This document shows positions 9,229-32,133 of a DNA stretch of 64,000 nucleotides, piece by piece (the first letter of the stretch is position 1; each line of letters begins with the position of its first letter). The notes under the pieces were generated by a model. The model did not search any database, was not told the origin of the DNA, and saw only the letters and a program-made list of their open reading frames with translations. The stretch is from Sphaerotilus microaerophilus (GTDB lineage: Bacteria > Pseudomonadota > Gammaproteobacteria > Burkholderiales > Burkholderiaceae_C), in assembly GCF_023734135.1 (NCBI RefSeq), contig NZ_AP025730.1, positions 992,001 to 1,056,000 of the forward strand, written 5' to 3'. A program made the translations under genes and the position numbers.

Positions 9229-9461
9229 CGCGGCACCTCCTGGCGTGCCGGCATGGGGGCCGCCGAGCGTGTGCCTGGCTGCGACCCGGGCGAGACCTGC
9301 GCCTGCAGCAGCCGTTCCAGCGGCCAGCTCAGCAGCTCGTTGAGGGTGCAGGGGTGAGGGTGGGGGTAGGCGCCGATGGGCAGCAGCAGGCCCAGGCCCA
9401 GCGCCAGGGCGCCAAGGCAGCACGGGTGTCGGCGTTGCGCCTGATCGGTGGTGGGGGGCAT
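9225..9461 (-). CDS. Small 78-aa exported peptide with a TonB-receptor-like SLEQL box
   Basis: No database family is recognised. The gene sits 8 bp after the TonB receptor stop and overlaps the yfiR-like start by 4 bp, so operon packing supports it being real. The product has a basic N-terminus, a hydrophobic stretch ([17 protein letters not shown]) that could be a signal peptide, and then [20 protein letters not shown]. That last segment resembles the box just after the signal peptide of the neighbouring receptor (LTAMSLEQLVNIQVVGAS): in both, L-x-x-[MW]-x-LE-x-L-x-x-x-QV is shared. It may be a stand-alone copy of that receptor N-terminal element, or a diverged remnant of it. It could also be a coupling leader for yfiR translation. 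Confidence 0.6.
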
Positions 9462-9469
9462 CGGCGGTC

Positions 9470-11506: not shown

Positions 11507-11952
11507 GGCAAGGAGGTCAAGGTGGGGCACGCTGCGCTCGTGCGGCGTCGCCGGCCGTGGGCGGCCAGACGCGTCACGAAGGTAGTTCGCATCACCCGGC
11601 AGCAGCGCCCCGATGAAGGGGCCTTGGCGCCGGTATTTCGGGTTGTCGGCTGGGCGCTGGCCAGCTTGACCGGCCAGGCAGGGGTGGGCGCCGTGTGGGT
11701 TGGGCCCGTGTTGCAGCCGTCACGCCCGCAGTCGCGCCGCCGGCACCGGCGGTGCAGTCCGCCGGTCGGCGGCCGATATGGCTGTGTGGCGCTGCGTGGC
11801 GATATGCACCGTGATTCGCCGCGTCTTCCGGCCCTGTCGGTGTCGGGGCGTGGCTACGCTGGTGTCTGTTTGCCCGTGCGCCAAGGGTCCCGTCGACAGT
11901 CCTCTGCCCGACGGGATCGGGTCGTCCGCGCCCTGTTCCTTCTCCCCAAGCC
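11507..11952. promoter_or_regulatory. Divergent intergenic region between receptor operon and giant-protein export operon
   Basis: These 446 bp separate two oppositely transcribed operons and must hold both promoters. I see no convincing sigma70 hexamer pair, no T-tract terminator and no long palindrome. Open frames that cross it are GC-rich shadow frames without homology. The first gene on the plus strand lacks a Shine-Dalgarno-like sequence before ATG 11953 (the preceding bases are pyrimidine-rich). Confidence 0.45.
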
Positions 11953-13839
11953 ATGTCCATCCAGCCCTCCTCGTCGGCCACCGATGCCCAGCCAGCACCA
12001 GCACGCCTGTTGCAGCCGGGCCTGCAGCGCTGGCTCCAGCAGCACTGCCAGAGCGGCAGCGAGGTGTGCGCCGGGGTCGTCGTGCTGGCCGGTGGCGAGG
12101 CGCAGTCGCTCCAGCCGGCTGCCGAGTGGCCCGCGGGTGGGGCGCTGACGCCGCCGCTGCTGAACGCGGCACGCGCGGCCGTGCAGCGTGGCCGACCGGT
12201 GGTGGTGGTGCCGACGGTGCGGCTGGTGGGCGCGAGCCACAACCGCGTGCTGGCGCTGCCGATCAAGGCGACCGCCCCGGGGGGCTCGGGAGTGGGCACG
12301 GAAAAGGGCGCGGAAAATGGCGCTGGTGCCGACCGACCGCCGCTGGGGGCCGTGGCCCTGGCGGTGCGTGTCGAAGACCCGACGGCGGTGGAGCGGCTGC
12401 TGCGTGAGCTGGGCCAGGCCTGCACCGAGCTGCGCCTGGGCGCGCCGCTGGACTTGGCCGTGCCCGACTCGGCCAATGCCGCCACGGAGCGGCTGCTGCA
12501 CTACCAGGCCCTGCTGCTGGGTGGCACCGACCTGGCCGAGGGGGCGCTGGCCTTCACCACCGAGCTGGCCGCCCGCCTGGGGGCCGAGCGCGTCAGCCTG
12601 GCGGCTCAGCGCCGATCCGGCATGGAGTTGGTGGCGGTGTCGCACAGTGCGGAGTTCCGCCCCGAGCTGGCGCTGGTGCAACAGATCATCCAGGTGATGC
12701 AGGAGTGTGCCGACCAGGGCGAGCGGGTCGCGTATCCAGCGCTGAGCACCGAGGTGCCGCGCATCATCCTGGCGCATGCGCGCCTGCACCAGCAGGCCGG
12801 CCATGGCCTGGTCAGTGTGCCGCTGGCGCATGGTGGGCGCATCGTGGGGGCGCTGCTGGTCGAATGGGCGGGCGGGGCCGTGCCGGTGGGGCCGCAGGTG
12901 CGGGCCTGCGAGCGGCTGGCCGCGGCCATCGCACCGCTGGTGTGGCTGCGCCGCCGAGCCGACCGCCCCTGGCGTGACCGCCTGATGCTGGCGCTGGACC
13001 GCCTGCCCAGCCGCCTGCGCCAGCGCAACGATCCCCTGCCCAAGCTGATCGCCGCCGCCTGTGCGGCCGCGGTCGCGGGCGTCACCTTCATCCCCGTGCA
13101 CTACCGTGTGGGGGCACCGGCGCACCTGGAGGGCGCAGTGCAGCGCGTGGTGGCGGCACCCTTTGACGGCTTTCTGCACCGCAGCACGGTGCGCCCGGGC
13201 GACACGGTGAAGGCCGGCGACGTGGTGGCCGAGCTGGCCGACCAGGACCTGAAGCTCGAAGCCCGCAAGTGGGAGAGTGCCCTGGCGCAGCACGAGAACG
13301 GCGTGGCCGCTGCGCTGGCGCGCGACGACCGGGCGCAGTTCGTCATCAGCCGCGGCAAGGCCGACGAGGCGCGTGCCCAGCTGGAGCTGGCGCGCCAGCA
13401 CCTGGAGCGCACCAGGCTGGTCGCCCCGATCGACGGCGTGGTCATCCAGGGTGATCTCAGCCAGTCGCTGGGCGCGCCGGTGCAGCGTGGCGACGCGCTG
13501 CTGACGCTGTCCCCGGTCGGGCAGCACCGCCTGGTCATCGAGGTGGATGAGCGCGACATCGCCGCGGTGCGGCCGGGTCAGACCGGCCGGCTGGCACTGT
13601 CTTCCCTGCCCACCGACACGCTGGCGCTGGTGGTGGAGCGCGTCACGCCGGTGGCGACGGTGCGCGAAGGGCGCAATGCCTTCGAGGTCGAGGCGCGCCT
13701 GGGCGAGGGGGCGGCGACGCTGCGCCCCGGCTTGCAGGGCGTGGCCAAGATCGACGCCGGCTCGCACTCGCTGGCCTGGATCGCCACCCACCGCCTCATC
13801 GACTGGGCCCGCCTGGCCAGTTGGTCCTGGCTGCCCTGA
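11953..13839 (+). CDS. GAF domain-HlyD-type adaptor membrane protein
   Basis: The 628-residue protein has no N-terminal signal. Residues about 180-335 look like a GAF-type sensory domain in the cytoplasm (ATERLLHYQALLLG, RVSLAAQRR, VSVPLAHGGRIVGALLVEW). One hydrophobic segment (KLIAAACAAAVAGVTFIPVHY) lies at about 362-382. The remainder is a membrane-fusion/HlyD architecture: barrel-sandwich halves (GDTVKAGDVVAELADQDLKL and VAPIDGVVIQGDLSQSLGAPV) flank a short helical hairpin, with a beta-barrel after it. The topology is therefore cytosolic sensor, one transmembrane helix, periplasmic adaptor, which is unusual for this family. It is the first gene of the export operon, 31 bp before the M50 fusion gene. 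I infer that it couples a cytoplasmic signal to assembly of the export conduit. Confidence 0.88.
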   Translation: MSIQPSSSATDAQPAPARLLQPGLQRWLQQHCQSGSEVCAGVVVLAGGEAQSLQPAAEWPAGGALTPPLLNAARAAVQRGRPVVVVPTVRLVGASHNRVLALPIKATAPGGSGVGTEKGAENGAGADRPPLGAVALAVRVEDPTAVERLLRELGQACTELRLGAPLDLAVPDSANAATERLLHYQALLLGGTDLAEGALAFTTELAARLGAERVSLAAQRRSGMELVAVSHSAEFRPELALVQQIIQVMQECADQGERVAYPALSTEVPRIILAHARLHQQAGHGLVSVPLAHGGRIVGALLVEWAGGAVPVGPQVRACERLAAAIAPLVWLRRRADRPWRDRLMLALDRLPSRLRQRNDPLPKLIAAACAAAVAGVTFIPVHYRVGAPAHLEGAVQRVVAAPFDGFLHRSTVRPGDTVKAGDVVAELADQDLKLEARKWESALAQHENGVAAALARDDRAQFVISRGKADEARAQLELARQHLERTRLVAPIDGVVIQGDLSQSLGAPVQRGDALLTLSPVGQHRLVIEVDERDIAAVRPGQTGRLALSSLPTDTLALVVERVTPVATVREGRNAFEVEARLGEGAATLRPGLQGVAKIDAGSHSLAWIATHRLIDWARLASWSWLP

Positions 13840-13870
13840 GCGGGGCGCACCCAGCCCGCTGACTCTCGCC

Positions 13871-16060
13871 ATGACCGCCACCCTCTACAGCGCCCAGTGG
13901 TACCGCATCGCCCGGTTGCGCCCACGCCTGCGTGCGCAGGTGCGTGTGCAACGCCAGCACTGGCGGGGCGAGCGCTGGTACCTGCTGTCCGACTACGCCA
14001 CCGGCCGGCAGCACCGGCTCAGCGACGCGGCCTACCAGTTCATCGGCCGCTGCGATGGCCAGCGCACGGTGCAGGACGTCTGGAACACCCTGCTCGAAGG
14101 CCGGCCCGACGATGCGCCGACCCAGGACGAGGTGCTCGCGCTGCTGGGCGAGCTCGACGAGCTGGAGCTGCTGCAGTCCGAACGTGCCGGCAATGCCGCG
14201 GCGCTGCGCCAGCGGCGTGACGAGCGCCGCGCCAAGCGCCGCCGCAGCCTGCTCAACCCGCTGTCGTTCCGGCTGCCGCTGGCCGACCCGTCGGCCTGGC
14301 TGCCGCGGCTGGACCCGCTGGCGCAGCGCCTGTTCAGCCCCGCGGCCGGCTGGCTGCTCGGCCTGGGGCTGCTGCTGGCGCTGCTGGTCATGCTCACGGA
14401 GTGGCCGGCGCTGCAGGCCCATGCCCGCCAACGCCTGGGCAGCCCGGGCTTCCTGTTCCTGCTCTGGATCCTCTACCCGCTGCTCAAGACGGTGCATGAG
14501 CTCGGCCATGCCCTGGCGGTGCGGCGCTGGGGCGGCGAGGTGCATGAGATCGGCCTCGGGCTGATCCTGCTCACCCCAGCGCCCTACGTGGACGCCTCGG
14601 CCGCGGCGGCGTTCACGCAGCGCCACCAGCGCGCCCTGGTGAGTGCCGCGGGCATCCTGGTCGAGCTGGCGCTGGCGGCGCTGGCGCTGGGCGCGTGGAC
14701 CCTGACCCAGCCGGGCCGGGTGCACGACGCCGCGCTGGCGGTGATGCTGATCGGCGTCACCTCCACGCTGCTGTTCAACGGCAACCCGCTGCTGCGCTTC
14801 GACGGCTACCACCTGATGGGCGACCTGTTCGACCTGGCGAACCTGGGTGCGCGCAGCAACGCCTGGTGGAGCCGCCGGCTCGGCGCGCGGCTGCTCGGCG
14901 TGGCCGGGCCGCTGCCGCCGCATGCGGCCAGTGAGCGCAAGTGGCTGATCGCCTACGCACCGCTGGCGCTGGCCTGGCGGGTCGGTCTGACGCTGGCCTT
15001 GATCGGCTGGCTGGGGGCGACCTGGGTCGGCTTCGCCCTGCTGGGCCTGGCCTATGCGGCCATGGCGCTGCTGTGGCAGCCGCTGCGGGGCTGGTCCCGC
15101 CAGGCGCTGCAGGCCGCCGCGCCGGGGGCCGAGCTGGCCCGCGTGCGCCTGCGCCTGGGCCTGATCGGGGTGGGCAGCCTGCTGGCGCTGTGCGTCGTGC
15201 CGCTGCCGCAGCACACACTGGCGCCCGGCGTGGTCTGGCTGCCCGAGCAGGCGCAGCTGCGCAGCGAGGTGGAGGGCTTCATCGCCGAGCTGCCGGTGGC
15301 CGACGGCGCCAGCGTACGCCCGGGCGACGTGCTGCTGCGCCTGTCCAACCCCGAGCTGCAGGCCGCGCGCGACCAACTGGCCGCGCGGCTCGACGGCCTG
15401 CAGGCCGAGCACTACCAGCAACTGCTGCGCGACCCCGGCGCGGCGCAGAACCTGCAGCTCGACCTGGAGCGCAGCCGTGCCGAGCTGGCCCGGGCCGACG
15501 AGCGCCTGGCGCGCCTGACCCTGCGTGCCCAGGTGGCCGGGCGGCTGGTGCTGCCGCGCCAGGCGGACCAGAGCGGCCGCTGGCTGCGCCAGGGCACGAC
15601 GCTGGGCTACGTGCTGGCGCCCGACGCCCTGCGCGTGCGTGCGGCCGTGCCCGAACAGGATGCCCACCTGGTGCGCCAGCAGTTCCAGATGACGCAGGCT
15701 GCGCAGGCCGTGCAGGTCCGCCTGGCCGATGGCGGTGGCGAGGTGCTGGACGCGCGGCTGAGTTCCGCGGTGCCGGCGGCCACCCGCCAGTTGCCCAGCG
15801 CAGCGCTGGGCGAACCCGGCGGCGGCCCCATCGCCGTGGAGCCGGCGGCCAAGCCGGGCCAGGACCCGACGAAAGGTGTGCAGGCCACGCAGGCGCTGCA
15901 GCCGGTGTTCCTCTTCGACCTCGCCGTGCCGGGCCTGGCGGTGGAGCGCGTGGGCACGCGTGCCTGGGTGCGCTTCGAGCACGGCAGCGCGCCGCTGGCC
16001 TGGCAGCTCTACCGGCGGGCGTCGCAGCTGTTCCTGCAGCACGTCTCGCCGGCCACCTGA
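13871..16060 (+). CDS. PqqD-like / M50 metalloprotease / barrel-sandwich (HlyD) fusion membrane protein
   Basis: This 729-residue protein has three parts. Residues about 30-110 resemble a PqqD-type RiPP-recognition element (YLLSDYATGRQHRLSDAAYQ, CDGQRTVQDVW). A multi-helix membrane region then carries the site-2-protease zinc motif HELGH at 209-213 (KTVHELGHALAVRRWGGEV) and, after further helices, the conserved NPLLRFDGYHLMGDLFDLANL. That segment supplies the third metal ligand, the Asp of FDGYH. The C-terminal part (about 460-729) is a periplasmic barrel-sandwich/HlyD domain (ELPVADGASVRPGDVLLRL, LRAQVAGRLVLPRQADQSG). S2P proteases cleave substrates at or within the membrane. PqqD domains bind leader peptides in RiPP pathways. 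I infer recognition and processing or hand-over of the giant protein's N-terminus. It lies 18 bp before the SecA-like gene. Confidence 0.9.
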   Translation: MTATLYSAQWYRIARLRPRLRAQVRVQRQHWRGERWYLLSDYATGRQHRLSDAAYQFIGRCDGQRTVQDVWNTLLEGRPDDAPTQDEVLALLGELDELELLQSERAGNAAALRQRRDERRAKRRRSLLNPLSFRLPLADPSAWLPRLDPLAQRLFSPAAGWLLGLGLLLALLVMLTEWPALQAHARQRLGSPGFLFLLWILYPLLKTVHELGHALAVRRWGGEVHEIGLGLILLTPAPYVDASAAAAFTQRHQRALVSAAGILVELALAALALGAWTLTQPGRVHDAALAVMLIGVTSTLLFNGNPLLRFDGYHLMGDLFDLANLGARSNAWWSRRLGARLLGVAGPLPPHAASERKWLIAYAPLALAWRVGLTLALIGWLGATWVGFALLGLAYAAMALLWQPLRGWSRQALQAAAPGAELARVRLRLGLIGVGSLLALCVVPLPQHTLAPGVVWLPEQAQLRSEVEGFIAELPVADGASVRPGDVLLRLSNPELQAARDQLAARLDGLQAEHYQQLLRDPGAAQNLQLDLERSRAELARADERLARLTLRAQVAGRLVLPRQADQSGRWLRQGTTLGYVLAPDALRVRAAVPEQDAHLVRQQFQMTQAAQAVQVRLADGGGEVLDARLSSAVPAATRQLPSAALGEPGGGPIAVEPAAKPGQDPTKGVQATQALQPVFLFDLAVPGLAVERVGTRAWVRFEHGSAPLAWQLYRRASQLFLQHVSPAT

Positions 16061-16078
16061 ACGGGCTGGCTGATCACC

Positions 16079-18121
16079 ATGGCCCGCACCGCCACCCTGC
16101 CTGCCCCCGGCCTCGTCTGGGGCCCTCACCCGGAACGCCGCACGGGCCCGCGCGAGCTGGGCGAGCGCGTCCAGGCCGGCTGGACCGCAGCGCTGGACCG
16201 CCTGGGCGCCTGGCGCCGGCACGACGACGCGGCCTTCCTCGCCCGGGTGCATGCCGCGGCCCCCACCGCCACGCTGGACGAGGCGGCGCTGCAGGCCCTG
16301 CGCGCCTGCCTGTCGCGGGAACGCACCCACGAACCCGCCTCCGCGCGCGCCCGCGAGGCGGCCCACGCAGGCTTCTCCACCGCCAGCCTGGCGCTGGGGC
16401 TGGCCACCGCGTCGGCGGCCGCACGGCAGACCCTGGGACACCGCCCCTACGACACCCAGCTGATCGCTGCCCGGGCGGTGCTGGCCGGGCGCCTGGCCGA
16501 GATGGCCACCGGTGAGGGCAAGACCCTCACCGTGGCGCTGGCCGCCGCCGTCGCGGCGCTGGCCGGCCTGCCGGTGCATGTGGTGACGGCCAACGACTAC
16601 CTGGTGGCGCGCGACGCCGAGCGCCTGCGCCCGCTCTACGCCGCCCTGGGCCTGACGGTCGGCACCGTGGTGCAGGCCGACGAGCGTCCCGCGCGCGCCG
16701 CGGCCTACCGGTGCCAGGTCACCTACGTCACCGCCAAGGAGCTGGTGTTCGACTACCTGCGGGATGGGCAATCCGGCGGGCAAACCGCTGGGCAGGTTGC
16801 CGTGCAGGCCGCTGGCGAGGAGCTGCCGGGCGAGCGCGTGCTGCGCGGCCTGTGCATGGCCATCGTCGATGAGGCCGATGCCATCCTGCTCGACGAGGCG
16901 CGCGTGCCGCTGATCCTCTCCCAGCCGGTGGACATGGCCGACGCCGAGCGCCACGCCCGGCAGGCGCTGCGCTTTGCCCGCGCGCTGGAGGTGGGGACCC
17001 ACTGCGAGCTCGATGCGGCCACGCTGAGCGCCCGGCTCACCGAGCGCGGACGCGACCGGCTGGCACGCGCCACCGCGTCCGCGGACAGCGGCGAGCGCAG
17101 CGAATACGCCGACCTCAGCCCGGCCTGGCGCAACCGCCTGCACCGCGAGCACGCGGTGTGCACCGCGCTGGCCGCGCTGCACCTGTACCAGCGCGAGCGC
17201 CACTACATCGTGCGCGACGACACGGTGCAGCTCATCGACGAGACCACCGGCCGCATCGCCGAAGGGCGTGCCTGGGCCAACGGCCTGCAGCAGCTGGTCG
17301 AGATCAAGGAGGGCTGCGCGCCCAGCCCGGCCTTCGCCACCGTGGCGCAGATCACGTACCAGCGCTTCTTCCCGCGCTACTTCCGGCTCGGCGGGCTGTC
17401 CGGCACCTTGAGCGATGCGCGGGCCGAGCTGCTGGCGAGCTACGGCCTGTCGGTGCGACCGGTGCCGCTGCGCCGGCCCAGCCGGCGGCGCGTGGCGCCG
17501 ACGCGGCTCTTCCCTGATCACCCCAGCCTCTGGGTGGCGGTGGCGCGCCGGGTGCTGATGCTGCACCGGCGCGGCCGCCCGGTGCTGGTGGCCACCGACT
17601 CCGTGGCCGAGGCCCAGGCCCTGGCCGATCACCTGCATCGCGCGGGCCTGCCGCACGTGGTGCTGCACGCCCGCTGCGACGCCCAGGAGGCCGAGGTGGT
17701 GGCGCGCGCCGGCCAGCGCGGCGCCATCACCGTGACCACCAACATGGCCGGGCGCGGTACCGACATCGCGCTGGGCGAGGGCGTCGAGGCGCTTGGCGGC
17801 CTGCACGTCCTGAGCTGCCAGCTCAACGCGTCGCGCCGCATCGACCGCCAGCTCGCCGGCCGTGCCGCCCGCCAGGGCGACCCCGGCTCGGTGGAAACCT
17901 GGCTGTCGCTGGACAGCGCGCTGCTCGCACGCAGCCTGCCCGCCTCCTGGCGCCCCTGGCTGGCCGCGCGCTGCCGGCGCCTGCCGCAGCCGCTGCTGCG
18001 CGCGCTGCTGCGCTGGCCGCAGCACATGGAAGAACAGCGCCAGCGCATGCAGCGCGAGCGCCTGATCCGCCACGACGAACAGATGGAACGCCGGCTCGCC
18101 TTCGCGGGCCGCAGTGAGTGA
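16079..18121 (+). CDS. SecA-like translocase ATPase lacking the C-terminal helical domains
   Basis: The 680-residue protein has the SecA motor. Walker A is MATGEGKT (142-149). The DEAD box lies in IVDEADAILLDEARVPLIL (about 264), and a preprotein-crosslinking region includes YIVRDDTVQLIDETTGR. The second nucleotide-binding fold shows NMAGRGTDIALGEGV and RIDRQLAGRAARQGDPGS. Housekeeping SecA is roughly 900 residues. This protein ends soon after NBD2, so most of the helical scaffold and wing, the linker and the zinc-binding tail are missing. The N-terminus is also unlike that of SecA. It is therefore an accessory, specialised ATPase rather than the essential SecA. Position between the M50 fusion and a periplasmic adaptor (0 bp before the next ATG) argues that it powers or loads export of the downstream giant protein. 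Confidence 0.9.
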   Translation: MARTATLPAPGLVWGPHPERRTGPRELGERVQAGWTAALDRLGAWRRHDDAAFLARVHAAAPTATLDEAALQALRACLSRERTHEPASARAREAAHAGFSTASLALGLATASAAARQTLGHRPYDTQLIAARAVLAGRLAEMATGEGKTLTVALAAAVAALAGLPVHVVTANDYLVARDAERLRPLYAALGLTVGTVVQADERPARAAAYRCQVTYVTAKELVFDYLRDGQSGGQTAGQVAVQAAGEELPGERVLRGLCMAIVDEADAILLDEARVPLILSQPVDMADAERHARQALRFARALEVGTHCELDAATLSARLTERGRDRLARATASADSGERSEYADLSPAWRNRLHREHAVCTALAALHLYQRERHYIVRDDTVQLIDETTGRIAEGRAWANGLQQLVEIKEGCAPSPAFATVAQITYQRFFPRYFRLGGLSGTLSDARAELLASYGLSVRPVPLRRPSRRRVAPTRLFPDHPSLWVAVARRVLMLHRRGRPVLVATDSVAEAQALADHLHRAGLPHVVLHARCDAQEAEVVARAGQRGAITVTTNMAGRGTDIALGEGVEALGGLHVLSCQLNASRRIDRQLAGRAARQGDPGSVETWLSLDSALLARSLPASWRPWLAARCRRLPQPLLRALLRWPQHMEEQRQRMQRERLIRHDEQMERRLAFAGRSE

Positions 18122-19012
18122 ATGAGCCTGACCATGAAGACACCGACCCCGTTGTTCCACCCCTCTGTCTGGCGCGGCCTGTGCGTCCTGGCCGCCTGCC
18201 TCGCCGGGCCGGCTGGCGTGTTGGCCGCACCGCTCACCGGCTGCCTGATCGAGCCCGAGCGCAGCGCCGACGTCGGCAGCCCGGTGGCCGGGGTGATCGA
18301 GCGCATCGAGGTCGAGCGCGGCCAGCGCGTGCGCAAGGGCCAGGTGCTGGCGGTGCTGCGCGCCGAGGTGGAGCGCGCCTCGCTCGACGTGGCCAAGTCG
18401 CGCGCCGATTCCAACGCCGACCTGGAGGCCGCCGCTGCCAACGCTGCCTTCAACCGCGACCGCCTGGTGCGGGCCGAAGACCTGTTCCGCCAGAGCTTCA
18501 TCTCCCAGCAGGCGCTGGACCAGGCCCGCACCGAGGCCCGCCTGGCTGACCAGAAGCTCAAGCAGGCCCGCGAGCAGCGTGCCATCTCGCGCCAGGAGCG
18601 CGACGTGGCCGAGGCCCAGCTCTCGCAGCGCGTCATCCGCAGCCCGATGGACGGCGTGGTGGCCGAGCGCCATGCCGCTGCAGGCGAGCGCGCCGACGAC
18701 AAGCCGCTGCTGCGCATCGCCCGCATCGACCCGCTGCGCGTGCAGCTCGTCGTGCCCACCAGCCTGTACGGCCAGGTGCGCGTGGGCGGCAAGGTCGGCG
18801 TCTCGCCGGAGCTGCCCGGCGCCGCCCGGCTGATCGCCCGCGTGACGATGGTGGACAAGGTCATCGACCCGGCCAGCAACACCTTCCGCGTCCAGCTGGA
18901 ACTGCCCAACCCCGATCTGGCGCTGCCCGCCGGCCTGCGCTGCAAGGCCGAGATCGACGCGGCGGCGGTGGCTGCCGCCGAACCGGCGCCAGGCGCCACG
19001 CGCCACCGCTGA
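18122..19012 (+). CDS. Periplasmic adaptor subunit (HlyD/RND membrane-fusion type)
   Basis: The 296-residue protein has an N-terminal signal peptide (LCVLAACLAGPAGVLAAPL). An N-terminal barrel-sandwich half (GSPVAGVIERIEVERGQRVRKG) is followed by a long alpha-helical hairpin rich in Ala, Arg and Gln (about 85-160). The second half (VIRSPMDGVVAERHAAAGER) and a beta-barrel (PLRVQLVVPTSLYGQVRVG) complete the fold. Such adaptors bridge an inner-membrane motor and an outer-membrane channel. It starts one base after the SecA-like stop; an ATG at 18134 is a plausible alternative and would give a tighter signal peptide. It is the third barrel-sandwich protein in this operon, but the window has no ABC or RND pump and no TolC-like channel to match, so its partners are inferred to be the M50 and SecA-like proteins. 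Confidence 0.9.
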   Translation: MSLTMKTPTPLFHPSVWRGLCVLAACLAGPAGVLAAPLTGCLIEPERSADVGSPVAGVIERIEVERGQRVRKGQVLAVLRAEVERASLDVAKSRADSNADLEAAAANAAFNRDRLVRAEDLFRQSFISQQALDQARTEARLADQKLKQAREQRAISRQERDVAEAQLSQRVIRSPMDGVVAERHAAAGERADDKPLLRIARIDPLRVQLVVPTSLYGQVRVGGKVGVSPELPGAARLIARVTMVDKVIDPASNTFRVQLELPNPDLALPAGLRCKAEIDAAAVAAAEPAPGATRHR

Positions 19013-19030
19013 CCCGGCTCCTGAGCCGGG
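19013..19030 (+). other. Hairpin between adaptor gene and giant gene
   Basis: CCCGGCT and AGCCGGG form a 7-bp stem with a 4-nt loop directly after the adaptor stop. No T-tract follows, so it is not a standard intrinsic terminator. It could be an mRNA-processing or partial attenuation element ahead of the 11.4-kb giant gene, whose ATG is 111 bp downstream and has no obvious Shine-Dalgarno sequence. Confidence 0.4.
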
Positions 19031-19141
19031 GGATGGCGATGCGCCGATCTCCTTGGTTCGCACCCGGCTGATCCGCCGATCGGCCGGGCAGCGCCTGCTC
19101 AGACTCGGACGACTGCCCGCCGTCTGCCCTGCCCGCTTGCC

Positions 19142-25100: not shown

Positions 25101-28100
25101 ACCGCATCGCCATCCGCAACCAGGGCAGTGGGGCGGGCCAGATCGGCGTGTCCGGCACCGACGTGAGCTACGAAGGCGTGGTGATCGGCAACTGGACCGG
25201 GGGCACGGACGGACTGACGCCGCTGGTGGTCACGTTCAACTCCAGCGCCACCACCGTGGCCGTCCAGGCGCTGGCGCGCAACGTCACTTACGAGAACGTG
25301 TCCGAGAGCCCGTCCACGGCGGTGCGCACGATGGCCGGCTACCTGACCGACGGGGCCGGCGGCAGCAGCAACATCGTGTCGGGCACGTTGTCGATCACGC
25401 CGGTCAACGACGCGCCCACCCTGAGCAGCAGCTCCGCACTGCCGTCCGTCAGCGAGGACGACGTCACCAACAGCGGCTTCCTCGTCTCCTTTCTGGCCGA
25501 CGGTGCGAACGACGCCGATGCCGGTGCCTTGAAGGGCCTGGCCGTGACCAGCGTGGATGACAGCCACGGCACCTGGCAGTACACGCTGGACGGCACGACC
25601 TGGCAGGACATCGGCGCGGTCTCCCAGACCAACGCCCGCCTGCTGCCCTCCGACACCGTGGCGCGCATCCGCTTCGTGCCCGCGGCCGACTGGAACGGCG
25701 TGACCGGCCCGTTCGCCTACCAGGCCTGGGACCAGACCAGCGGCGTCGCGGGGGGCCTGGGCGATGCCAGCGTGTACGGCGGCAGCACGGCGTTCAGCTT
25801 CGGCGCCTCCAGTTCATCGCTGAGCGTCATGGCGGTCAATGACGCACCGGTCAACGCCCTACCGGGCACCCAGGTCACCCCGGTCAATGTGCCGCTGACC
25901 TTGTCGGTGGCGAACGGCAACGCGATCAGCATCGGCGACGCGGATGCCGCCAACGCGGCGCTGTCGGTGACCCTGTCGGCGACCCACGGCACGCTGACAC
26001 TGGCCGGCATGGCGGGGCTGGGCTTCACGACCGGCGACGGGACGGCCGACGCCAGCATGACCTTCACGGGCACGGCCGCGGCCATCAACGCGGCCTTGGA
26101 CGGGCTGGTGTTCACCCCGGCCGCCGGCTACCAGGGCAGCGCCGTGCTGAGCCTGGCCACCAACGACCTCGGCAACACCGGTAGCGGCGGGGCGCTTGCT
26201 GACAGTGACAGCCTCAACATCGCCGTCGGTGGCGCACGTTTCCAGGAAGGGGCGGACGGCTACGGCGGTACCCAGGACACCTGGGTGAGCACCAGTTCAC
26301 CGGGCACGGACCACGGCGCGCAGACCACCGTCGTGGCCGACGACAACAGCCTCCGCGATGCGGCGCTGCTGCGCTTTGACAACCTGTTCGGCACGGGGGC
26401 TGGCCAGATTCCCGCCGGCGCCATCATTCAGTCGGTGAGCCTGTCGGTCTACGTGACCAATGCCGATGCGCTCGACTTCGTGGCCCTGCACCGCATGTTG
26501 CAGCCCTGGACGGAGGCGTCCACTTTCGACTCGCTCATCAGCGGGGTGAGCACCGGCGGCGCCGAGGCCGGCTCCGCGTTGCTGACTTTCAGCGCCGGCT
26601 CGACCGGCTGGAACCACCTCAGCAGCGCCCAGCTCACCGCCACGGTCCAGGCCTGGGCCAACGGGGAGGCCAACCATGGCTGGGCCTTCATCTCGGACAA
26701 CGCCGACCTGTGGACCTTTGCCTCGTCGGAGAACGGCACCGTCAGCCAGCGGCCCTACCTGTCGGTGAGCTACGTCCTGCCGCAGGCGCCCGTCGTGGCT
26801 GTCTCCGGCACGGCGACCAGCTACACGGAGAACTCGGCCCCGGTGGCGGTCGACCCGGCGCTGACTGTCAGCGATGCCGACAGCACCCATCTCGCTGGCG
26901 CAACGGTGCGGATCAGCGCTAACCACCAGGCCGGCGAAGACGTGCTCGCCTTCACCAGCCAGTTCGGCATCACCGGCAGCTGGGACGCCAACGCCGGGAT
27001 CCTGACCCTGAGCGGCCAAGCCACCGTGGCGCAGTACCAGCAGGCGTTGCGCTCGGTCACCTACGCCAACACCAGCGAGGCGCCCACCGCCGACGCCCGC
27101 ACGCTGGCCTTCAGTGTCACGGACGTGTACTCCGGTCTCGGCAGCGCCCTGGTCAGTCGCAGCCTGAACGTCCTGCCGGTCAACGACGCGCCCACCGGTG
27201 GCGTCACGATCGACGACGTCACGCCGACGCAGGGCCAGACACTGACCGCGACGAACACCTTGGCCGACGCCGACGGAATCGGTCCGATCAGCTACCAGTG
27301 GCAGCGCAACGGCGTGGCCATCGGCGGCGCGACGGGCAGCAGCTACACCACCAGCCAGGCCGACGTGGGCGCCGTGCTCAGCGTGGTGGCCAGCTACACC
27401 GACGCGCTGGGTGCCAGCGAGAGCGTGGCCAGTGCCGATACGAGCGCAGTCGCGAACGTCAACGACGCGCCCACCGGCAGCGTCACGATCGACGACCTCA
27501 CGCCGACGCAGGGCCAGACACTGACCGCGACGAACACCCTGGCCGATGCCGACGGACTCGGTCCGATCAGCTACCAATGGCAGCGCAACGGCGTGGCCAT
27601 CGGCGGCGCGACGGGCAGCAGCTACTCCACGTCGCAAGCCGACGTAGGCGCCGTGCTCAGCGTGGTGGCCAGCTACACCGACGCGCTGGGATCTGCTGAG
27701 AGCGTGGCGAGTGCTGACACGAGCGCAGTCGCGAACGTCAACGACGCGCCCACCGGCGGCGTCACGATCGACGACCTCACGCCGACGCAGGGCCAGACCC
27801 TGACCGCGACGAACACCCTGGCCGACGCCGACGGACTCGGTCCGATCAACTACCAATGGCAGCGCAACGGCGTGGCCATCGGCGGCGCGACGGGCAGCAG
27901 CTACACCACGTCGCAGGCTGACGTGGGCGCCGTGCTCAGCGTGGTGGCCAGCTACACCGACGCGCTGGGTGCCAGCGAGAGCGTGGCGAGTGCGGGCACT
28001 GCGGCGGTGACCAACGTCAACGACGCGCCCACCGGCGGCGTCACGATCGACGACAGCACACCGATCCAGGGCCAGACGCTCACAGTGTCGAACACCCTGG

Positions 28101-30583
28101 CCGACGCCGACGGACTCGGTCCGATCAGCTACCAATGGCAGCGCAACGGCGTGGCCATCGGCGGCGCGACGGGCAGCAGCTACACCACCAGCCAGGCCGA
28201 CGTGGGCGCCGTGCTCAGCGTGGTGGCCAGCTACACCGACGCGCTGGGATCTGCCGAGAGCGTGGCGAGTGCCGATACGAGCGCAGTCGCGAACGTCAAC
28301 GATGCGCCCACCGGCAGTGTCACGATCGACGACAGCACACCGATCCAGGGCCAGACGCTCACGGTGTCGAACACCCTGGCCGACGCCGACGGACTCGGTC
28401 CGATCAGCTACCAGTGGCAGCGCAACGGCGTGGCCATCGGCGGCGCGACGGGCAGCAGCTACACCACCAGCCAGGCCGACGTGGGCGCCGTGCTCAGCGT
28501 GGTGGCCAGCTACACCGACGCGCTGGGTGCCAGCGAGAGCGTGGCCAGTGCCGATACGAGCGCAGTCGCGAACGTCAACGACGCGCCCACCGGCAGCGTC
28601 ACGATCGACGACCTCACGCCGACGCAGGGCCAGACGCTCACGGTGTCGAACACCCTGGCCGACGCCGACGGACTCGGTCCGATCAGCTACCAATGGCAGC
28701 GCAACGGCGTGGCCATCGGCGGCGCGACGGGCAGCAGCTACACCACCAGCCAGGCCGACGTGGGCGCCGTGCTCAGCGTGGTGGCCAGCTACACCGACGC
28801 GCTGGGATCTGCCGAGAGCGTGGCCAGTGCCGACACGAGCGCAGTCGCGAACGTCAACGACGCGCCCACCGGCAGTGTCACGATCGACGACAGCACACCG
28901 ACGCAGGGCCAGACCCTGACCGCGACGAACACCCTGGCCGACGCCGACGGACTGGGCACGATCAACTACCAGTGGCAGCGCAACGGCGTGGCCATTGGCG
29001 GGGCGACAGGCAGCAGCTACACCACCAGCCAGGCTGACGTGGGCGCCGTGCTCAGCGTGGTGGCCAGCTACACCGATGCGCTGGGCGCCAGCGAGAGCGT
29101 GGCGAGTGCGGGCACTGCGGCGGTGACCAACGTCAACGACGCACCCACGGCGGTCGATGGGGTGGTCGAGTTGGTCGAAGACCAGGGTCACACCTTTTCT
29201 GCCGCCGACTTCGGCTTTGCGGATGTGGACTCGGCCGATGCCCTGGGGGCCGTGCGCATCGAGGGGCTGCCCGGCGTTGGGAGCCTGACCCTGGACGGTG
29301 TGGCCGTGGTGGCGGGGCAGGAGATCGGCTCCGATCGCCTGGAGCACCTGATCTACAAGCCGCCTGCGGATGCCTTTGGGGCTGCGCTGGCCGTGTTGCA
29401 GGTGCGCGTGGCCGATGTCGCGGGTGTCTGGGCAGCGGACAGCCAGCAGGTGGTGCTGGATGTCCAGGCCGTGAACGACGCGCCGCGTCTGGAGCGCGTC
29501 GAGCTGACGTTGACGGATGGGGCGTCGCTGCTGCTCTCCGATGCGCAGCTGCTGGCCACCGATGTGGACTCGCCTTCCACGGAGGTGGTGTACCGGGTGA
29601 CTTCGATGTCCCATGGGCACTTCGAGGCGGTGGACCAGCCGGGTGTGGCGATCGATCAGTTCACGCAGGCCGATGTGTCCGGCCATCGGGTGCGCTTCGT
29701 GGCCCTGAGTTCCAGCAACCTGCCCAGTTTCGTGCTGGCGGTGGGCGACGGTGCCGGCACGCAGCAGCCGGTGAGCGTGCGGGTGTCGCACGAGACCACG
29801 GCGTTGCTGGCGATGCCCGGTGACGAGTCTGGCTCTGCTGGGGCGACGCCGGATGCGCCGGACGATCCTTCGCAGCCTGCGGGACCTGCGTTGCCGCCGG
29901 GGCCCCCGGCGCCGATGGGGACCGCTACCGTCAAGTCGATCGGCTCTGCACGCGATGGCGAGCGCGGCGGTGGGGAGGCGATGCAGGCGGCCGTGTTGCA
30001 GGCGGTGGTCGAGGGTGCCAGCACTGCGGAGGATGCGGCGCAGCACGCGAGCCGACAGGTGGCGGCAACGACCGCAGCGGTGCATCGCACGCCCCTGGTG
30101 GTGGACCTGCCGTCGTCTGAGCGGGAGCAGCAGGCCGCGCAGCGCCTGGCGCGGCTGGAGTTGTTGTTCGAGGCCGGTTGGGAGCTGGATCTTGGCCAGG
30201 ACAACCCGGACCAGGTGGTGGAGACGCTTGCGCTGGTGGAACCGCGCCGCGCCGGCCGCAGCAGTGAATCCAGCGGGCTGGCCGATGAGGGCGATGCGCC
30301 GTCGCAGGAGTTGACGCTGGCCACCGACGCTGCGCAGGCGGCGGGTGCCGTGCTGACGGCCGGGAGCGTCTGGTGGGCGCTGCGCGCGGGTGGGCTGGTG
30401 ACGAGCCTGCTTGGTTCGCTGCCGACCTGGCGCCATGTGGACCTGCTGGCGGTGCTGCCGGACGACGATGGGGCTGAAGGTTGGAACCGGGATGCCGATG
30501 ACGAGGCAGAGCGCGACGAGATGGCCTTCGACCGGTTGCTGTCGGGCGCCTCTGACGACGCGATGGAGAACGATCCGCGATGA
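19142..30583 (+). CDS. Giant LEPR-x-L / DUF4347 / multi-repeat cell-surface protein (3813 aa)
   Basis: The N-terminus is Arg-rich with no hydrophobic signal peptide. It carries the LEPRVLYSADA motif (18-28) known from very long bacterial exoproteins. A DUF4347 domain spans 184-325 (LHLISHGASGQLLFG, LLLYGCEVGAG), preceded by a partial degenerate copy at about 70-150. Seven propeller-like repeats follow (378-742), then several cadherin-like/Ca-binding beta domains. A LamG-like jelly roll lies at about 1424-1635, a DNRLRE-type domain at about 2364-2550, and seven near-identical 93-residue Ig-like repeats at 2681-3331. The tail has two more beta domains, the last CSPG-like, and a hydrophobic segment (SVWWALRAGGLVTSLLGSL, about 3741-3759) that could anchor it. 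The role is inferred: an adhesin, sheath or matrix protein exported by the products of the four upstream genes. The downstream cyclase start overlaps its stop (ATGA). Confidence 0.92.
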   Translation: MTRRRRPPVRPRLHVEELEPRVLYSADAALLLDPTLGGLAEVRVIAPPPAPAPAAAVQTLATPAMLDEAAQRRELVVVDARVADPYAVLDALARQRGGAASYDLVVLDADGDRQAQLTELLGHEQGLAAVHLVGPAQDAAPTQRSLGEVAALAALADGAELIGWQAGPGGELLRLADPAVQPLRSEIVFIDARVADIAPLLDELVADRSDDVVFEVIRIDASRDGLAQVSAALAGRSGIDALHLISHGASGQLLFGSGVVDTATLATRAGELGGWAGALSADADLLLYGCEVGAGEAGVQFTQALADATGADVAASDDRTGAAAQGGDWQLETRRGRLQATVLQAGTWGGSLGLTAQGGETLVNTTTSGGQTENWSAKTVAMDASGNYVVVWMDGSGVDGSGIGIYAQRYSAAGVAQGSQFQVNTYTADNQRNPQVAMAGNGSFVVVWESNGQDGSSYGVFAQRYSASGVAQGGEFRVNSTTALDQTEAAVAMDATGNFVVTWQSWSQDAVNSAGIYAQRYNSSGVAQGGEFRVNTYTTDDQSEPSIAMDAAGNFVIVWASWAQDGSDEGIYAQRYDSGGVAQGGAFKVNTYTTGYQGLPVVAMDGNGFVVVWESYAQDGSVSGVFGQRYNPSGVAQGSEFQINTTTTNNQQNPVVAMTTGGGFVVTWQSMAQDGSFDGVYARQYDGSGTALSAETRVNTTTTDYQDVPSVAADANGHLVVAWHGNGVGDSDGVFAQRYLYAVAPVLTLGGYSGTYVENAGVIFDASATVTDADTTVFSGGQLLYQITANGSSSDELGIRNQGSSAGLIGLSGSNVTYGGTVIGSYTGSAGAGSFGNGSTALTVTFNGSASVAAVQALVRNITYRNTSDNPGTATRTINLTVSDGTGMTSTPAVVTMAVTAVNDAPVITSNGGGATAAVGVAENSTTVAVVSATDAEGAALTYSILGGADAAKFSIDAGSGVLSFVSAPDYENPTDGGADNVYDVTVQVSDGSATDTQALAVTVTNVDEQIGAGASSSATTTGATSLTWFHTTSASSHDILIVTVSVRQDVPVTSVTYGGTALTQVGSRVDPSGKVRAEMWYLLAPPTGTANVVVTLSGSANATAGATTFYNVSQTTPFGSVTTGSGSGDPSLTLASAVGELVVDAVADRDVDSQVVGAGQTLLWTGKAGTGANDSWAGSSTEAGAASVTMSWTTNGGGAGEWAAVALSLKPFVNNAPVVATTGSVLAYTENGATTAVDSALTVGDADGDTLVGATVSISANYASGQDTLAFSTQNGITGSWNAGTGVLTLSGSATVAQYQAALRSITYANTSDNPSTATRTVSFTVSDGTSSNTATRNITVTATNDLPVAAADAGSGNEDVAINGNVLANDTDADGGALTATLVSGSSNGSLTLNADGSYSYTPNANWNGSDSFQYLVSDGSGLVHYWALEGNGNDVVGGAHGTVTGTTAVTGDAGSAMQFDEIDDVVVVPDFTYTNAFTVSFSFRLDDISGSTYQYLYSHGDYTAVNSLNILVGESGAGVGNAGVMRAVMRDSNDGAGSGVLTVDVNSLVGDGQWHEFTLVVAAGGTSKIYLDGTLCASDSRGGDAFDPTGSLYLGGRQDGDPSRLYGNALDSVKIYNRDLSSQEVAQLASTTQQGSVTLTVTSVNDAPVISAVEGSALAYSENAAATAVTATLTLTDIDSTNLSGATVQITGNYASGQDVLAFTNQNGITGSWNAGTGVLTLSGSATVANYQAALRSITYANGSDNPSTATRTVSFSVNDGMVDSNTATRNVSVAAVNDSPTVGGAMLAATTEDAANPPGDTIANLFSGSFADVDAGASLGGILVTHNPLNASQGAWQYSTDAGGNWHDIDAIAYPQSLALDAATRVRFLPAADFNGFPDSLSVRALDDSYAGAYTSGATRVTADATSPGGSSAISASLESLSTSVVAVNDAPLISFVSGSTVLAENAGALIVAPAATVADVDGTALTGGQLHVYFAENGQAEDRIAIRNQGSGAGQIGVSGTDVSYEGVVIGNWTGGTDGLTPLVVTFNSSATTVAVQALARNVTYENVSESPSTAVRTMAGYLTDGAGGSSNIVSGTLSITPVNDAPTLSSSSALPSVSEDDVTNSGFLVSFLADGANDADAGALKGLAVTSVDDSHGTWQYTLDGTTWQDIGAVSQTNARLLPSDTVARIRFVPAADWNGVTGPFAYQAWDQTSGVAGGLGDASVYGGSTAFSFGASSSSLSVMAVNDAPVNALPGTQVTPVNVPLTLSVANGNAISIGDADAANAALSVTLSATHGTLTLAGMAGLGFTTGDGTADASMTFTGTAAAINAALDGLVFTPAAGYQGSAVLSLATNDLGNTGSGGALADSDSLNIAVGGARFQEGADGYGGTQDTWVSTSSPGTDHGAQTTVVADDNSLRDAALLRFDNLFGTGAGQIPAGAIIQSVSLSVYVTNADALDFVALHRMLQPWTEASTFDSLISGVSTGGAEAGSALLTFSAGSTGWNHLSSAQLTATVQAWANGEANHGWAFISDNADLWTFASSENGTVSQRPYLSVSYVLPQAPVVAVSGTATSYTENSAPVAVDPALTVSDADSTHLAGATVRISANHQAGEDVLAFTSQFGITGSWDANAGILTLSGQATVAQYQQALRSVTYANTSEAPTADARTLAFSVTDVYSGLGSALVSRSLNVLPVNDAPTGGVTIDDVTPTQGQTLTATNTLADADGIGPISYQWQRNGVAIGGATGSSYTTSQADVGAVLSVVASYTDALGASESVASADTSAVANVNDAPTGSVTIDDLTPTQGQTLTATNTLADADGLGPISYQWQRNGVAIGGATGSSYSTSQADVGAVLSVVASYTDALGSAESVASADTSAVANVNDAPTGGVTIDDLTPTQGQTLTATNTLADADGLGPINYQWQRNGVAIGGATGSSYTTSQADVGAVLSVVASYTDALGASESVASAGTAAVTNVNDAPTGGVTIDDSTPIQGQTLTVSNTLADADGLGPISYQWQRNGVAIGGATGSSYTTSQADVGAVLSVVASYTDALGSAESVASADTSAVANVNDAPTGSVTIDDSTPIQGQTLTVSNTLADADGLGPISYQWQRNGVAIGGATGSSYTTSQADVGAVLSVVASYTDALGASESVASADTSAVANVNDAPTGSVTIDDLTPTQGQTLTVSNTLADADGLGPISYQWQRNGVAIGGATGSSYTTSQADVGAVLSVVASYTDALGSAESVASADTSAVANVNDAPTGSVTIDDSTPTQGQTLTATNTLADADGLGTINYQWQRNGVAIGGATGSSYTTSQADVGAVLSVVASYTDALGASESVASAGTAAVTNVNDAPTAVDGVVELVEDQGHTFSAADFGFADVDSADALGAVRIEGLPGVGSLTLDGVAVVAGQEIGSDRLEHLIYKPPADAFGAALAVLQVRVADVAGVWAADSQQVVLDVQAVNDAPRLERVELTLTDGASLLLSDAQLLATDVDSPSTEVVYRVTSMSHGHFEAVDQPGVAIDQFTQADVSGHRVRFVALSSSNLPSFVLAVGDGAGTQQPVSVRVSHETTALLAMPGDESGSAGATPDAPDDPSQPAGPALPPGPPAPMGTATVKSIGSARDGERGGGEAMQAAVLQAVVEGASTAEDAAQHASRQVAATTAAVHRTPLVVDLPSSEREQQAAQRLARLELLFEAGWELDLGQDNPDQVVETLALVEPRRAGRSSESSGLADEGDAPSQELTLATDAAQAAGAVLTAGSVWWALRAGGLVTSLLGSLPTWRHVDLLAVLPDDDGAEGWNRDADDEAERDEMAFDRLLSGASDDAMENDPR
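20275..21365 (+). repeat. Seven tandem about 50-residue propeller-like repeats in the giant protein
   Basis: Seven consecutive copies follow the pattern VAMDxxGNFVVxWxSxxQDG-x-GxxAQRYxxxGVAQGxEFxVNT. The seventh lacks the final strand (AADANGHLVVAWHGNG then DGVFAQRY). Exactly seven blades suggests a closed beta-propeller, though this is inference from repeat count and strand pattern. The copies are clearly diverged from each other, unlike the later 279-bp repeats. Confidence 0.75.
27182..29134 (+). repeat. Seven perfect-length 279-bp tandem repeats encoding Ig-like domains
   Basis: The repeats begin at 27182 and continue every 279 bp without indels, ending where the next NDAPT motif starts at 29135. 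Each encodes NDAPTGxVTIDDxTPxQGQ, a conserved YQWQRNGVAIGGATGSSY core, and YTDALGxxESVASA. Differences are confined to a few switch positions: TPTQ/TPIQ, TATNT/TVSNT, GASE/GSAE, and ADTSAVANV/AGTAAVTNV. These are shuffled between copies, the signature of recent unequal crossover or gene conversion. Confidence 0.97.
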
Positions 30584-32133
30584 GCTCCCTGCCTGCCCGG
30601 CCCGCCGGGCGACTGTGGCCCCGCTGGGGCATGCGACCGGTCACGCGCATCAGCCTCGGGCTGACGGCGCTGCTGATCTCGCTGCTGCTGGTGGCGGACC
30701 TGGTGCTGGGCGTGGTGCCCGGCCATGGCCAGTATGAGCGCATGCTGCGCAAGCGCGTGGCCGAGAACCTCGCGGTACAGCTGACCAGCCTGCTGCAGTC
30801 GGGGGACCATGCCGCGCTGGGCAAGACCATCCAGCAGGTGCTGGCGCGCAATGCGGAGGTGCGTTCGATCAGCGTGCACCGCCACGATGGCGCCCTGGTG
30901 ATGCAGCGAGGCGAGCTGCCGTCACTGGCCGAGCGCTCGCAGCAACAGGCCTCCGACCTGAACCACCTGCGCGTGCCCATCCTGGCGGGCCGCCAGTTGT
31001 GGGGCGAGGTGGAGATGACCTTCGTGCCGCTGGCCTCAGGCGGCCTGCGCCAGTGGCTGGCACAGCCGGGAGTGCAACTGCTGGTCGTGCTCGGTCTGGG
31101 GGGCTTCCTGCTCAGCCACGCCTACCTGAGCCGGGCGATGCAGTACCTGAATCCGTCCGCGACGATCCCGGACCGCGTGCGCCGCGCCTATGACAACCTC
31201 ACCGAGGGCCTGCTGATCCTCGACCAGCAGGCCCGCATCGTGCTGGCCAATGCGGCCTTCCGGCGCATGCATCCGGCGGCCCAGGTGGATCTGAACGGCC
31301 AGCCGATCCAGTCCCTGCGCTGGCTGCTGAACGGGCGCGACGAGGGGCAGCCAGAGGTGCCGCCCTGGGAGCGAACGCTCCACAGCGCCGAGAACGTGAC
31401 CGACGAGGTGCTGAGGCTGCCGCGCCCGGGCGAGCCGGACCTGCACCTGCTGGTGACCAGCGCGCCGGTCGTGGACGACCGGGGCAAGGTGCGCGGCTGC
31501 ATGGTCAGCTTCAACGACGAGACGGCGCTGCACCGCAGCCATGCCGATCTGCGCCAGGCGTTGGCCGAGGTGGAGCACGCCAAGGCCGAGGTGGATGCCA
31601 AGAACCAGGAGCTGCAGCGCCTGGCGTCGCGCGACCCGATGACCGGCTGCTACAACCGGCGCGCTTTCTTCGAGGCGGCCGAGGTGGCCTTCGAGGCGGC
31701 CCGGGCGGCCCACAGCGGGTTGTGCTGCATCATGAGCGACATCGACCACTTCAAGTCATTCAACGACACCTACGGCCATGCCGTGGGTGACCAGGTGATC
31801 CAGGTGGTGGCGCGTGCGCTGACGGGGGGCATCCGGCCGACCGACATCCTGTGCCGCTACGGCGGCGAGGAGTTCTGCATCGTGCTGCCGGGCAGCACCC
31901 CGGCCGTGGCCGCCGAGGTGGCCGAGCGTCTGCGTGCCGAGATCGAGTCGCATGCGCAGAGTGCGATCCGCGGCACGCAGGTGCGCCGGATCACCTCCAG
32001 CTTCGGCGTGGCCAGCTTGCTCACGGGTGCCAAGACGCTGAAGGAGCTGATCGACCACGCCGACCAGGCGCTGTATCGCTCCAAGGAATCCGGGCGCAAT
32101 CGCGTCACCGTCCACGAGCGCGAGTTGGCGTGA
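30580..32133 (+). CDS. Membrane PAS-GGDEF diguanylate cyclase coupled to the giant gene
   Basis: The 517-residue protein has two transmembrane helices (about 25-45 and 165-185) enclosing a periplasmic domain of about 120 residues. A PAS-like domain (about 205-330) and a coiled coil (ALAEVEHAKAEVDAKNQEL) precede the GGDEF domain. The active site is GGEEF at 428-432 and the inhibitory site RPTD (419-422) is at canonical spacing. It should therefore synthesise c-di-GMP and be product-inhibited. Its ATG lies inside the giant gene's last codons (ATGA overlap), so its translation depends on complete translation of that 11.4-kb frame. I infer that it reports on, or locally licenses, production of the surface protein. 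Confidence 0.93.
   Translation: MSSLPARPAGRLWPRWGMRPVTRISLGLTALLISLLLVADLVLGVVPGHGQYERMLRKRVAENLAVQLTSLLQSGDHAALGKTIQQVLARNAEVRSISVHRHDGALVMQRGELPSLAERSQQQASDLNHLRVPILAGRQLWGEVEMTFVPLASGGLRQWLAQPGVQLLVVLGLGGFLLSHAYLSRAMQYLNPSATIPDRVRRAYDNLTEGLLILDQQARIVLANAAFRRMHPAAQVDLNGQPIQSLRWLLNGRDEGQPEVPPWERTLHSAENVTDEVLRLPRPGEPDLHLLVTSAPVVDDRGKVRGCMVSFNDETALHRSHADLRQALAEVEHAKAEVDAKNQELQRLASRDPMTGCYNRRAFFEAAEVAFEAARAAHSGLCCIMSDIDHFKSFNDTYGHAVGDQVIQVVARALTGGIRPTDILCRYGGEEFCIVLPGSTPAVAAEVAERLRAEIESHAQSAIRGTQVRRITSSFGVASLLTGAKTLKELIDHADQALYRSKESGRNRVTVHERELA

Follow-up and report, generated by a model that had tools for sequence, protein, structure and literature searches.

Here, we report that six tightly packed genes on the plus strand of Sphaerotilus microaerophilus DNA (positions 11953–32133 of the 64,000-nucleotide stretch that we analyzed, hereafter the window; contig NZ_AP025730.1, 992,001 to 1,056,000) probably comprise a protein exporter and its cargo. 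We consider it likely that genes 1–4 encode an exporter that spans the cell envelope and is related to type I secretion, in which a short SecA replaces the ATP-binding cassette (ABC) transporter, and that the adjoining giant LEPR protein is the cargo. From the genes and their neighbors we infer export itself, the reading of its signal by a PqqD-like domain, and the motor role of the short SecA. An open reading frame (ORF) check of the window, together with domain profiles and, for gene 3, a structure alignment, gave the gene order as GAF-HlyD (gene 1, 628 aa, 11953–13839), a PqqD-M50-HlyD membrane protein (gene 2, 729 aa, 13871–16060), the short SecA (gene 3, 680 aa, 16079–18121), an HlyD adaptor (gene 4, 296 aa, 18122–19012), the giant LEPR protein (gene 5, 3813 aa, 19142–30583), and a PAS-GGDEF diguanylate cyclase (gene 6, 517 aa, 30580–32133). 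Genes 1 to 5 are separated by 31, 18, 0, and 129 bp, and the giant gene and gene 6 overlap by 4 bp; the same overlap of giant stop and cyclase start recurs in three other loci (L014, L034, and L046). An earlier sequence-only reading of this DNA had given the packing and gap sizes exactly as the ORF coordinates do, and its domain calls were each borne out by profiles, but its title put PqqD-M50-HlyD in first and GAF-HlyD in third place. It had also stated that no ABC transporter or TolC-like channel is present, in agreement with the domain scan, which reported no ABC exporter or outer-membrane efflux protein (OEP) domain in the six operon proteins or in the 10 flanking ORFs scanned (four of which had no match and may not be genes).

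Genes 1–4 are a conserved module that recurs in two phyla. An alignment-based scan of a species-genome collection with the M50 protein returned 503 relatives, the best 80 of which were kept as loci. A short SecA gene was found in 74 of these 80; in four of the other six, the contig stops less than 430 bp from the M50 gene. GAF-HlyD was present in 75 loci; the remaining five start less than 400 bp from the beginning of the M50 gene. Downstream, an HlyD gene on the same strand is found in 61/80 loci, and in two loci (L031 and L045) we noted a gene-4-like HlyD match on the opposite strand. Judged by record titles, the 80 loci come from beta-, gamma-, alpha-, and deltaproteobacteria, Nitrospira, and one Myxococcota bin.

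The evidence that ties the giant to this module is its distribution across genomes. In a phylum sample of 398 genomes, the LEPR-XLL profile NF012209 matched in 41, and in none of 14 control genomes. M50 proteins of the module (cassette M50) were called at a gap in bit score (351 versus 222), which left 37 genomes above it. A LEPR protein was found in 32 of these 37 genomes but in only 9 of the 361 others (Fisher test taking genomes as independent, p = 8e-34, uncorrected for phylogeny), and the 32 genomes span 13 families. Short SecAs were called when the match reached at least position 654 of 663 (housekeeping SecA ends near 550), giving at least 43 places in at least 35 genomes; among the matches listed, LEPR proteins occurred in 29/35 short-SecA genomes versus 12/363 others (p = 1e-28). 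Nitrospirota behaved similarly: among 148 genomes, seven had a LEPR protein, eight had the cassette, and six had both, that is, 6/8 cassette genomes versus 1/140 others (p = 1.5e-8). In the seventh LEPR genome, an M50 gene with a lower score lies about 1 kb away from the LEPR gene. The sequence-only reading had proposed a search for such co-occurrence; when it was run, M50, short SecA, and LEPR proteins were associated in the samples of both phyla.

Gene distances point the same way. Cassette genomes contain 42 LEPR places, of which 25 have a cassette gene on the same contig, whereas 17 are on other contigs; of the 25, 22 lie within 16 kb of a cassette gene and three lie farther away. The idea that the giant is a mere bystander was rejected on these distances and the co-occurrence counts. 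They also bear on a rival explanation, that a conventional type I ABC transporter encoded elsewhere exports the giant while the cassette is a neighbor with another job. This genome does encode OEP proteins and two LssB-type type I ABC transporters that score above the cut-off (C1:4083936 and C1:3656521; none in the window), and the latter could serve the giant. However, more than 2.5 Mb separates either transporter from the operon, and LEPR proteins and the cassette are strongly associated in two phyla and, on shared contigs, mostly at short range, so that we regard export by a distant ABC transporter as very unlikely.

The position of the giant relative to the module varies. The LEPR pattern was found in the gene after HlyD in 28/80 loci, and a whole-genome search for 32 loci, mostly ones with no downstream LEPR gene, found it in 26. 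In many of these 32 the giant sits upstream of GAF-HlyD, a second arrangement that a downstream-only inspection misses. Between such an upstream giant and GAF-HlyD we also noted a small protein, mostly of about 100–150 aa (L042, 7743–8075, and 17 further loci); that of L042 is DUF3467 (PF11950), maybe a chaperone. Nitrospirota LEPR frames are 597–2448 aa long, so the cargo need not be giant, and elsewhere LEPR frames adjoining a short SecA reach 15,434 aa. The longest LEPR frame that we encountered (19,427 residues, G093:C115:112865) is on a contig that has no cassette gene.

The window giant matches NF012209 at 21.3 bits, above the curated cut-off of 17, at residues 13–31 (19178–19234), the predicted export signal; it was the only match in the whole genome (6.06 Mb, two contigs). 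Its N-terminus is basic and has no hydrophobic core ahead of the LEPR motif, where the maximal 15-residue hydropathy is −1.17, as expected from the earlier claim that the giant lacks an ordinary signal peptide. Nor was a hydrophobic signal peptide seen in other LEPR N-termini (readable in 29 of 34 loci; top hydropathy 1.09, the rest at most 0.43). Downstream of the motif, the giant carries DUF4347 (residues 187–342, 19700–20167) and cadherin-like repeats. A structure model suggests that DUF4347 may be a protease domain with a caspase-like fold (clan CD), and His247-Gly248 and Cys290 are invariant in 18/18 aligned sequences. Foldseek with the giant N-terminus ranked unrelated two-lobed proteins first, and the caspase-like reading came from a second look; the closest structure among the matches listed was the type VI secretion system protein Tce1 (9qpe_G). 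Near its C-terminus, the giant has a moderately hydrophobic segment (30344–30400), a possible anchor, with a Kyte-Doolittle value of 1.15 versus 1.39–1.85 in five relatives; hydropathy alone does not support a strong transmembrane anchor here. We noted that this stretch, with an acidic or polar tail after it, resembles the relatives' GLSVGYVxWLxRGGVLLSSLLSSLPAWRLxDPLPIL.

Gene 2 starts with a PqqD-like domain (residues 18–101, 13922–14173), predicted to bind a leader. A profile of gene 2 N-termini searched against the PDB at E ≤ 10 returned four chains, all PqqD or recognition domains of ribosomally synthesized and post-translationally modified peptides (RiPPs): 3g2b (PqqD, E = 6.2e-4), 5sxy and 5vrd (PqqC/D), and 6jx3 (TfuB1). 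The Pfam profile PF05402 (PqqD) matched 19/24 gene 2 N-termini at E ≤ 0.01 and 17/22 full-length proteins at E ≤ 0.001; the window protein scored 25.1 bits with its N-terminus alone (cut-off 23.4) and 21.6 bits in full length. In loci L131 (12777–13205) and L132 (11296–11724) the PqqD-like domain is a separate 143-aa ORF. Gene 2 also has six hydrophobic segments, HELGH at 209–213, and NPLLRFDG; the M50 profile matched 22/22 full-length proteins, and H209, E210, H213, N305, P306, and D311 are invariant in 22/22 aligned. A structure search with the M50 model found no S2P or PqqD among the 50 matches listed, which mainly cover residues 444–714. Gene 1 is predicted to have a cytoplasmic GAF region, a transmembrane helix at residues 365–383, and a periplasmic HlyD part. 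The GAF profile PF01590 falls under the curated cut-off in the window protein (E = 0.0011) and matches 20/20 aligned relatives at E ≤ 0.01.

The PqqD and M50 parts of gene 2 also recall daptide and YydH/LiaK proteases, and the cassette could serve RiPP maturation or peptide export with the giant as a bystander. In favor of this, gene 2 matches the daptide HExxH family NF041824 (153 bits, cut-off 300) and NF058609 (27 bits, cut-off 225), though both far below threshold. We give this explanation hardly any weight: no RiPP tailoring enzyme is among the six operon proteins, HlyD parts occur in genes 1, 2, and 4, and the module is associated with LEPR proteins.

Gene 4 provides the candidate link to the outer membrane. 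Behind an N-terminal hydrophobic segment (residues 16–34), it carries an RLS tip (R117-x3-L121-x6-S128, 18470–18505), the motif by which HlyD-type adaptors dock TolC (PMC3391258). A plain R-x3-L-x6-S pattern was dropped as a means of comparing the three HlyD proteins because it matches by chance (gene 4, 36/61; gene 1, 28/75; gene 2, 27/80), and aligned positions were therefore counted for gene 4. Among 58 aligned relatives, R is present in 58, L in 56, and S or T together with R and L in 41; the third position is S in 35, A in 13, T in 6, and P in 4. No RLS tip was seen when the aligned hairpins of genes 1 and 2 were read. The genome has 25 OEP matches outside the operon, and in loci L131 and L132 an OEP gene lies inside the operon alongside the short SecA. 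The likely outer-membrane partner of the module is a TolC-type channel.

Next, we examined the short SecA. Residues 93–618 of gene 3 align to SecA structures (8ya0) over the two ATPase folds and the preprotein cross-linking domain. Compared with the housekeeping SecA of the same genome, the only other SecA match there, gene 3 breaks off within the first long helix of the scaffold, leaving the last ~300 residues of the housekeeping protein with no counterpart; the C-terminal tail is absent as well, and the SecA_SW profile found no match in gene 3. The absent portion includes the regions known as the wing and the two-helix finger. Across 26 aligned short SecAs, the GEGKT, DEAD-type, and GR..RQG motifs are conserved, and all share an end point near LAF-G..E. 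At E ≤ 1e-20, gene 3 has 7661 relatives, full-length SecAs included, the best 120 of which are 541–733 aa long. Since the truncation and the conserved end recur in 26 proteins and the genome retains a full SecA, decay of a housekeeping copy was ruled out; by its sequence, the short SecA is a family of its own.

The absence of a two-helix finger raises the possibility that an M50-HlyD-TolC core exports the giants and that the short SecA is an accessory, such as a cytoplasmic unfoldase or a targeting ATPase, or that the housekeeping SecA is the driver. Operons lacking a short SecA lend some weight to this alternative. In loci L121/L122, L123, L124, and L126, genes for OEP, HlyD, HlyD, and M50 lie near LEPR giants of the ALEPRILLDAA type, and this genome itself has such a sister operon (C1:2362937-2381530; L157 and L158) with the order OEP, HlyD, giant, HlyD, and M50. 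Its 4063-aa giant, which carries DUF4347 and begins MNAPTRRRHLFAQAPRSLALEARLMFDAAA, has a LEPR-like motif (LEARLMFDAA) that NF012209 does not recognize. By contrast, for 35/43 short SecA places among the matches listed, a cassette M50 on the same strand is no more than 1.5 kb away, and the conserved ATPase motifs suggest a core job in the SecA-bearing subtype. We consider this alternative rather unlikely. Judged from gene content, the core common to both kinds of operon is M50, HlyDs, and TolC, with the short SecA marking one subtype, and the sister operons support a role of the module in giant export. The sequence-only reading had overlooked these SecA-less operons and the TolC gene within them, as well as the docking tip of gene 4.

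Several further observations weigh against an exporter driven by the short SecA, as do the LssB-type transporters mentioned above. Since LEPR or LEPR-like giants also occur next to sister operons that have no short SecA, this protein is not required for every such cargo; two loci (L043 and L080) pass directly from M50 to HlyD with no short SecA, and one genome (G364) has a cassette M50 and a LEPR protein with a single SecA match only. Pfam reported no PqqD match for the two M50 proteins from SecA-less operons that were scanned at full length (that of L122 and this genome's second copy), and in a whole-model structure search the single match listed for the PqqD region of gene 2 was GdmN, not PqqD. 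The RLS serine is replaced by Ala or Pro in 17/58 gene 4 relatives, and the first HlyD of this genome's sister operon has no RLS tip. The co-occurrence is also imperfect: in the phylum sample, nine genomes have LEPR with no cassette and five have the cassette with no LEPR, NF012209 was unmatched in 6 of the 32 cassette genomes searched whole, and two Nitrospirota cassette genomes had no LEPR match. Of the nine cassette-free LEPR genomes, three (G114, G069, and G096) have an M50-HlyD gene near LEPR, and seven have a lower-scoring M50 match; G225 and G244 have none at E ≤ 1e-40.

With these points in mind, the mechanism that we favor would run as follows. By analogy with RiPP leaders, the PqqD-like cytoplasmic domain of the M50 protein would bind the basic, non-hydrophobic LEPR N-terminus of the giant. 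With its ATPase folds and polypeptide-clamping domain retained but the two-helix finger and wing lost, the short SecA would feed the chain either through the membrane M50 protein or alongside it. The HlyD portions of the first two genes, together with the separate HlyD of gene 4, might form a periplasmic conduit, and the RLS tip of gene 4 would dock a TolC-type channel encoded elsewhere in the genome. Trimming or release could be performed by the M50 site or by DUF4347 of the cargo, with its possible caspase-like fold. Export may be coupled to a small-molecule signal, probably cyclic di-GMP, through the GAF domain and the diguanylate cyclase that is co-translated with the giant. More tentatively, this would amount to a distinct pathway, in which a RiPP-type domain reads an N-terminal LEPR tag while a SecA with no finger threads proteins as long as ~15,000 residues via an M50 gate and HlyD-TolC, a reading that we find plausible but stop short of favoring.

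Elsewhere in the window, the minus strand upstream of the operon (3648–11530) encodes a response regulator-GGDEF-EAL protein, a hybrid histidine kinase with Hpt, and a TonB-dependent receptor. No match was obtained when the whole window was scanned for Rfam families and tRNA genes.

The sequence-only reading knew of no described secretion type with this set of genes, but the four-gene module has been in print since 2015 (Kamneva, Poudel, and Ward; PMC4452313). The main text of that paper describes a short "secondary SecA_DEAD" gene, lacking the wing-scaffold domain, with M50-HlyD, GAF-HlyD, and HlyD genes and sometimes an OEP gene, exemplified by META1p2402-2399 of M. extorquens AM1. It proposes a type-I-like exporter with SecA as the ATPase and M50 as the membrane pore, calls the biological role of the module completely unknown, and names no cargo there; the terms LEPR, PqqD, giant, cadherin, and DUF4347 have 0 occurrences in it. 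Within the text available from the open-licence literature (preprints excluded), nothing was found that ties LEPR proteins to the module, and LEPR-XLL appeared only in passing. An exporter orphaned since 2015 would thus gain a cargo, a candidate signal, and a likely outer-membrane partner, and LEPR giants, named but with no described export route, would gain a candidate exporter. If the distinct pathway outlined above is real, RiPP leader recognition has been re-used as a signal system for protein export. Two questions also become testable: whether a SecA that lacks its two-helix finger is able to translocate protein, and whether a domain that binds RiPP leaders can serve as a receptor for secretion.

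Gene 3 agrees with the SecA_DEAD protein of the published module in lacking the wing-scaffold, and the M50-HlyD, GAF-HlyD, and HlyD genes are its neighbors here too; relative to the main text of PMC4452313, the cargo, the LEPR signal, the PqqD domain, the RLS tip, and the SecA-less sisters are additions. Like type I secretion (HlyB-HlyD-TolC and LapBCE-type adhesin export), the system has HlyD adaptors, one of them (gene 4) with an RLS/RLT-type tip, a giant repetitive cargo, and a cyclic di-GMP enzyme nearby; the TolC-type channel is found outside this operon, in the genome, in L131 and L132, and in the SecA-less sisters. Unlike type I secretion, there is no ABC transporter in the cluster, a SecA-type ATPase and a membrane M50 protein are present, and the predicted signal is N-terminal rather than C-terminal. 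In accessory Sec systems (SecA2-SecY2 and SecA2-only), a second SecA serves particular, often large, surface proteins. Gene 3 shares their nucleotide-binding and preprotein cross-linking domains; however, it is much shorter, lacks the two-helix finger and wing-scaffold, and has HlyD/TolC-type partners in a Gram-negative host, and LEPR N-termini lack the hydrophobic signal peptide of accessory Sec cargo. Lastly, the N-terminus of gene 2 is, by profile, the same domain as the RiPP recognition elements (PqqD and lasso B1 proteins such as TfuB1), but here it shares one polypeptide with a membrane protease and an HlyD module, and the putative leader sits on proteins of about 600 to 15,000 residues.

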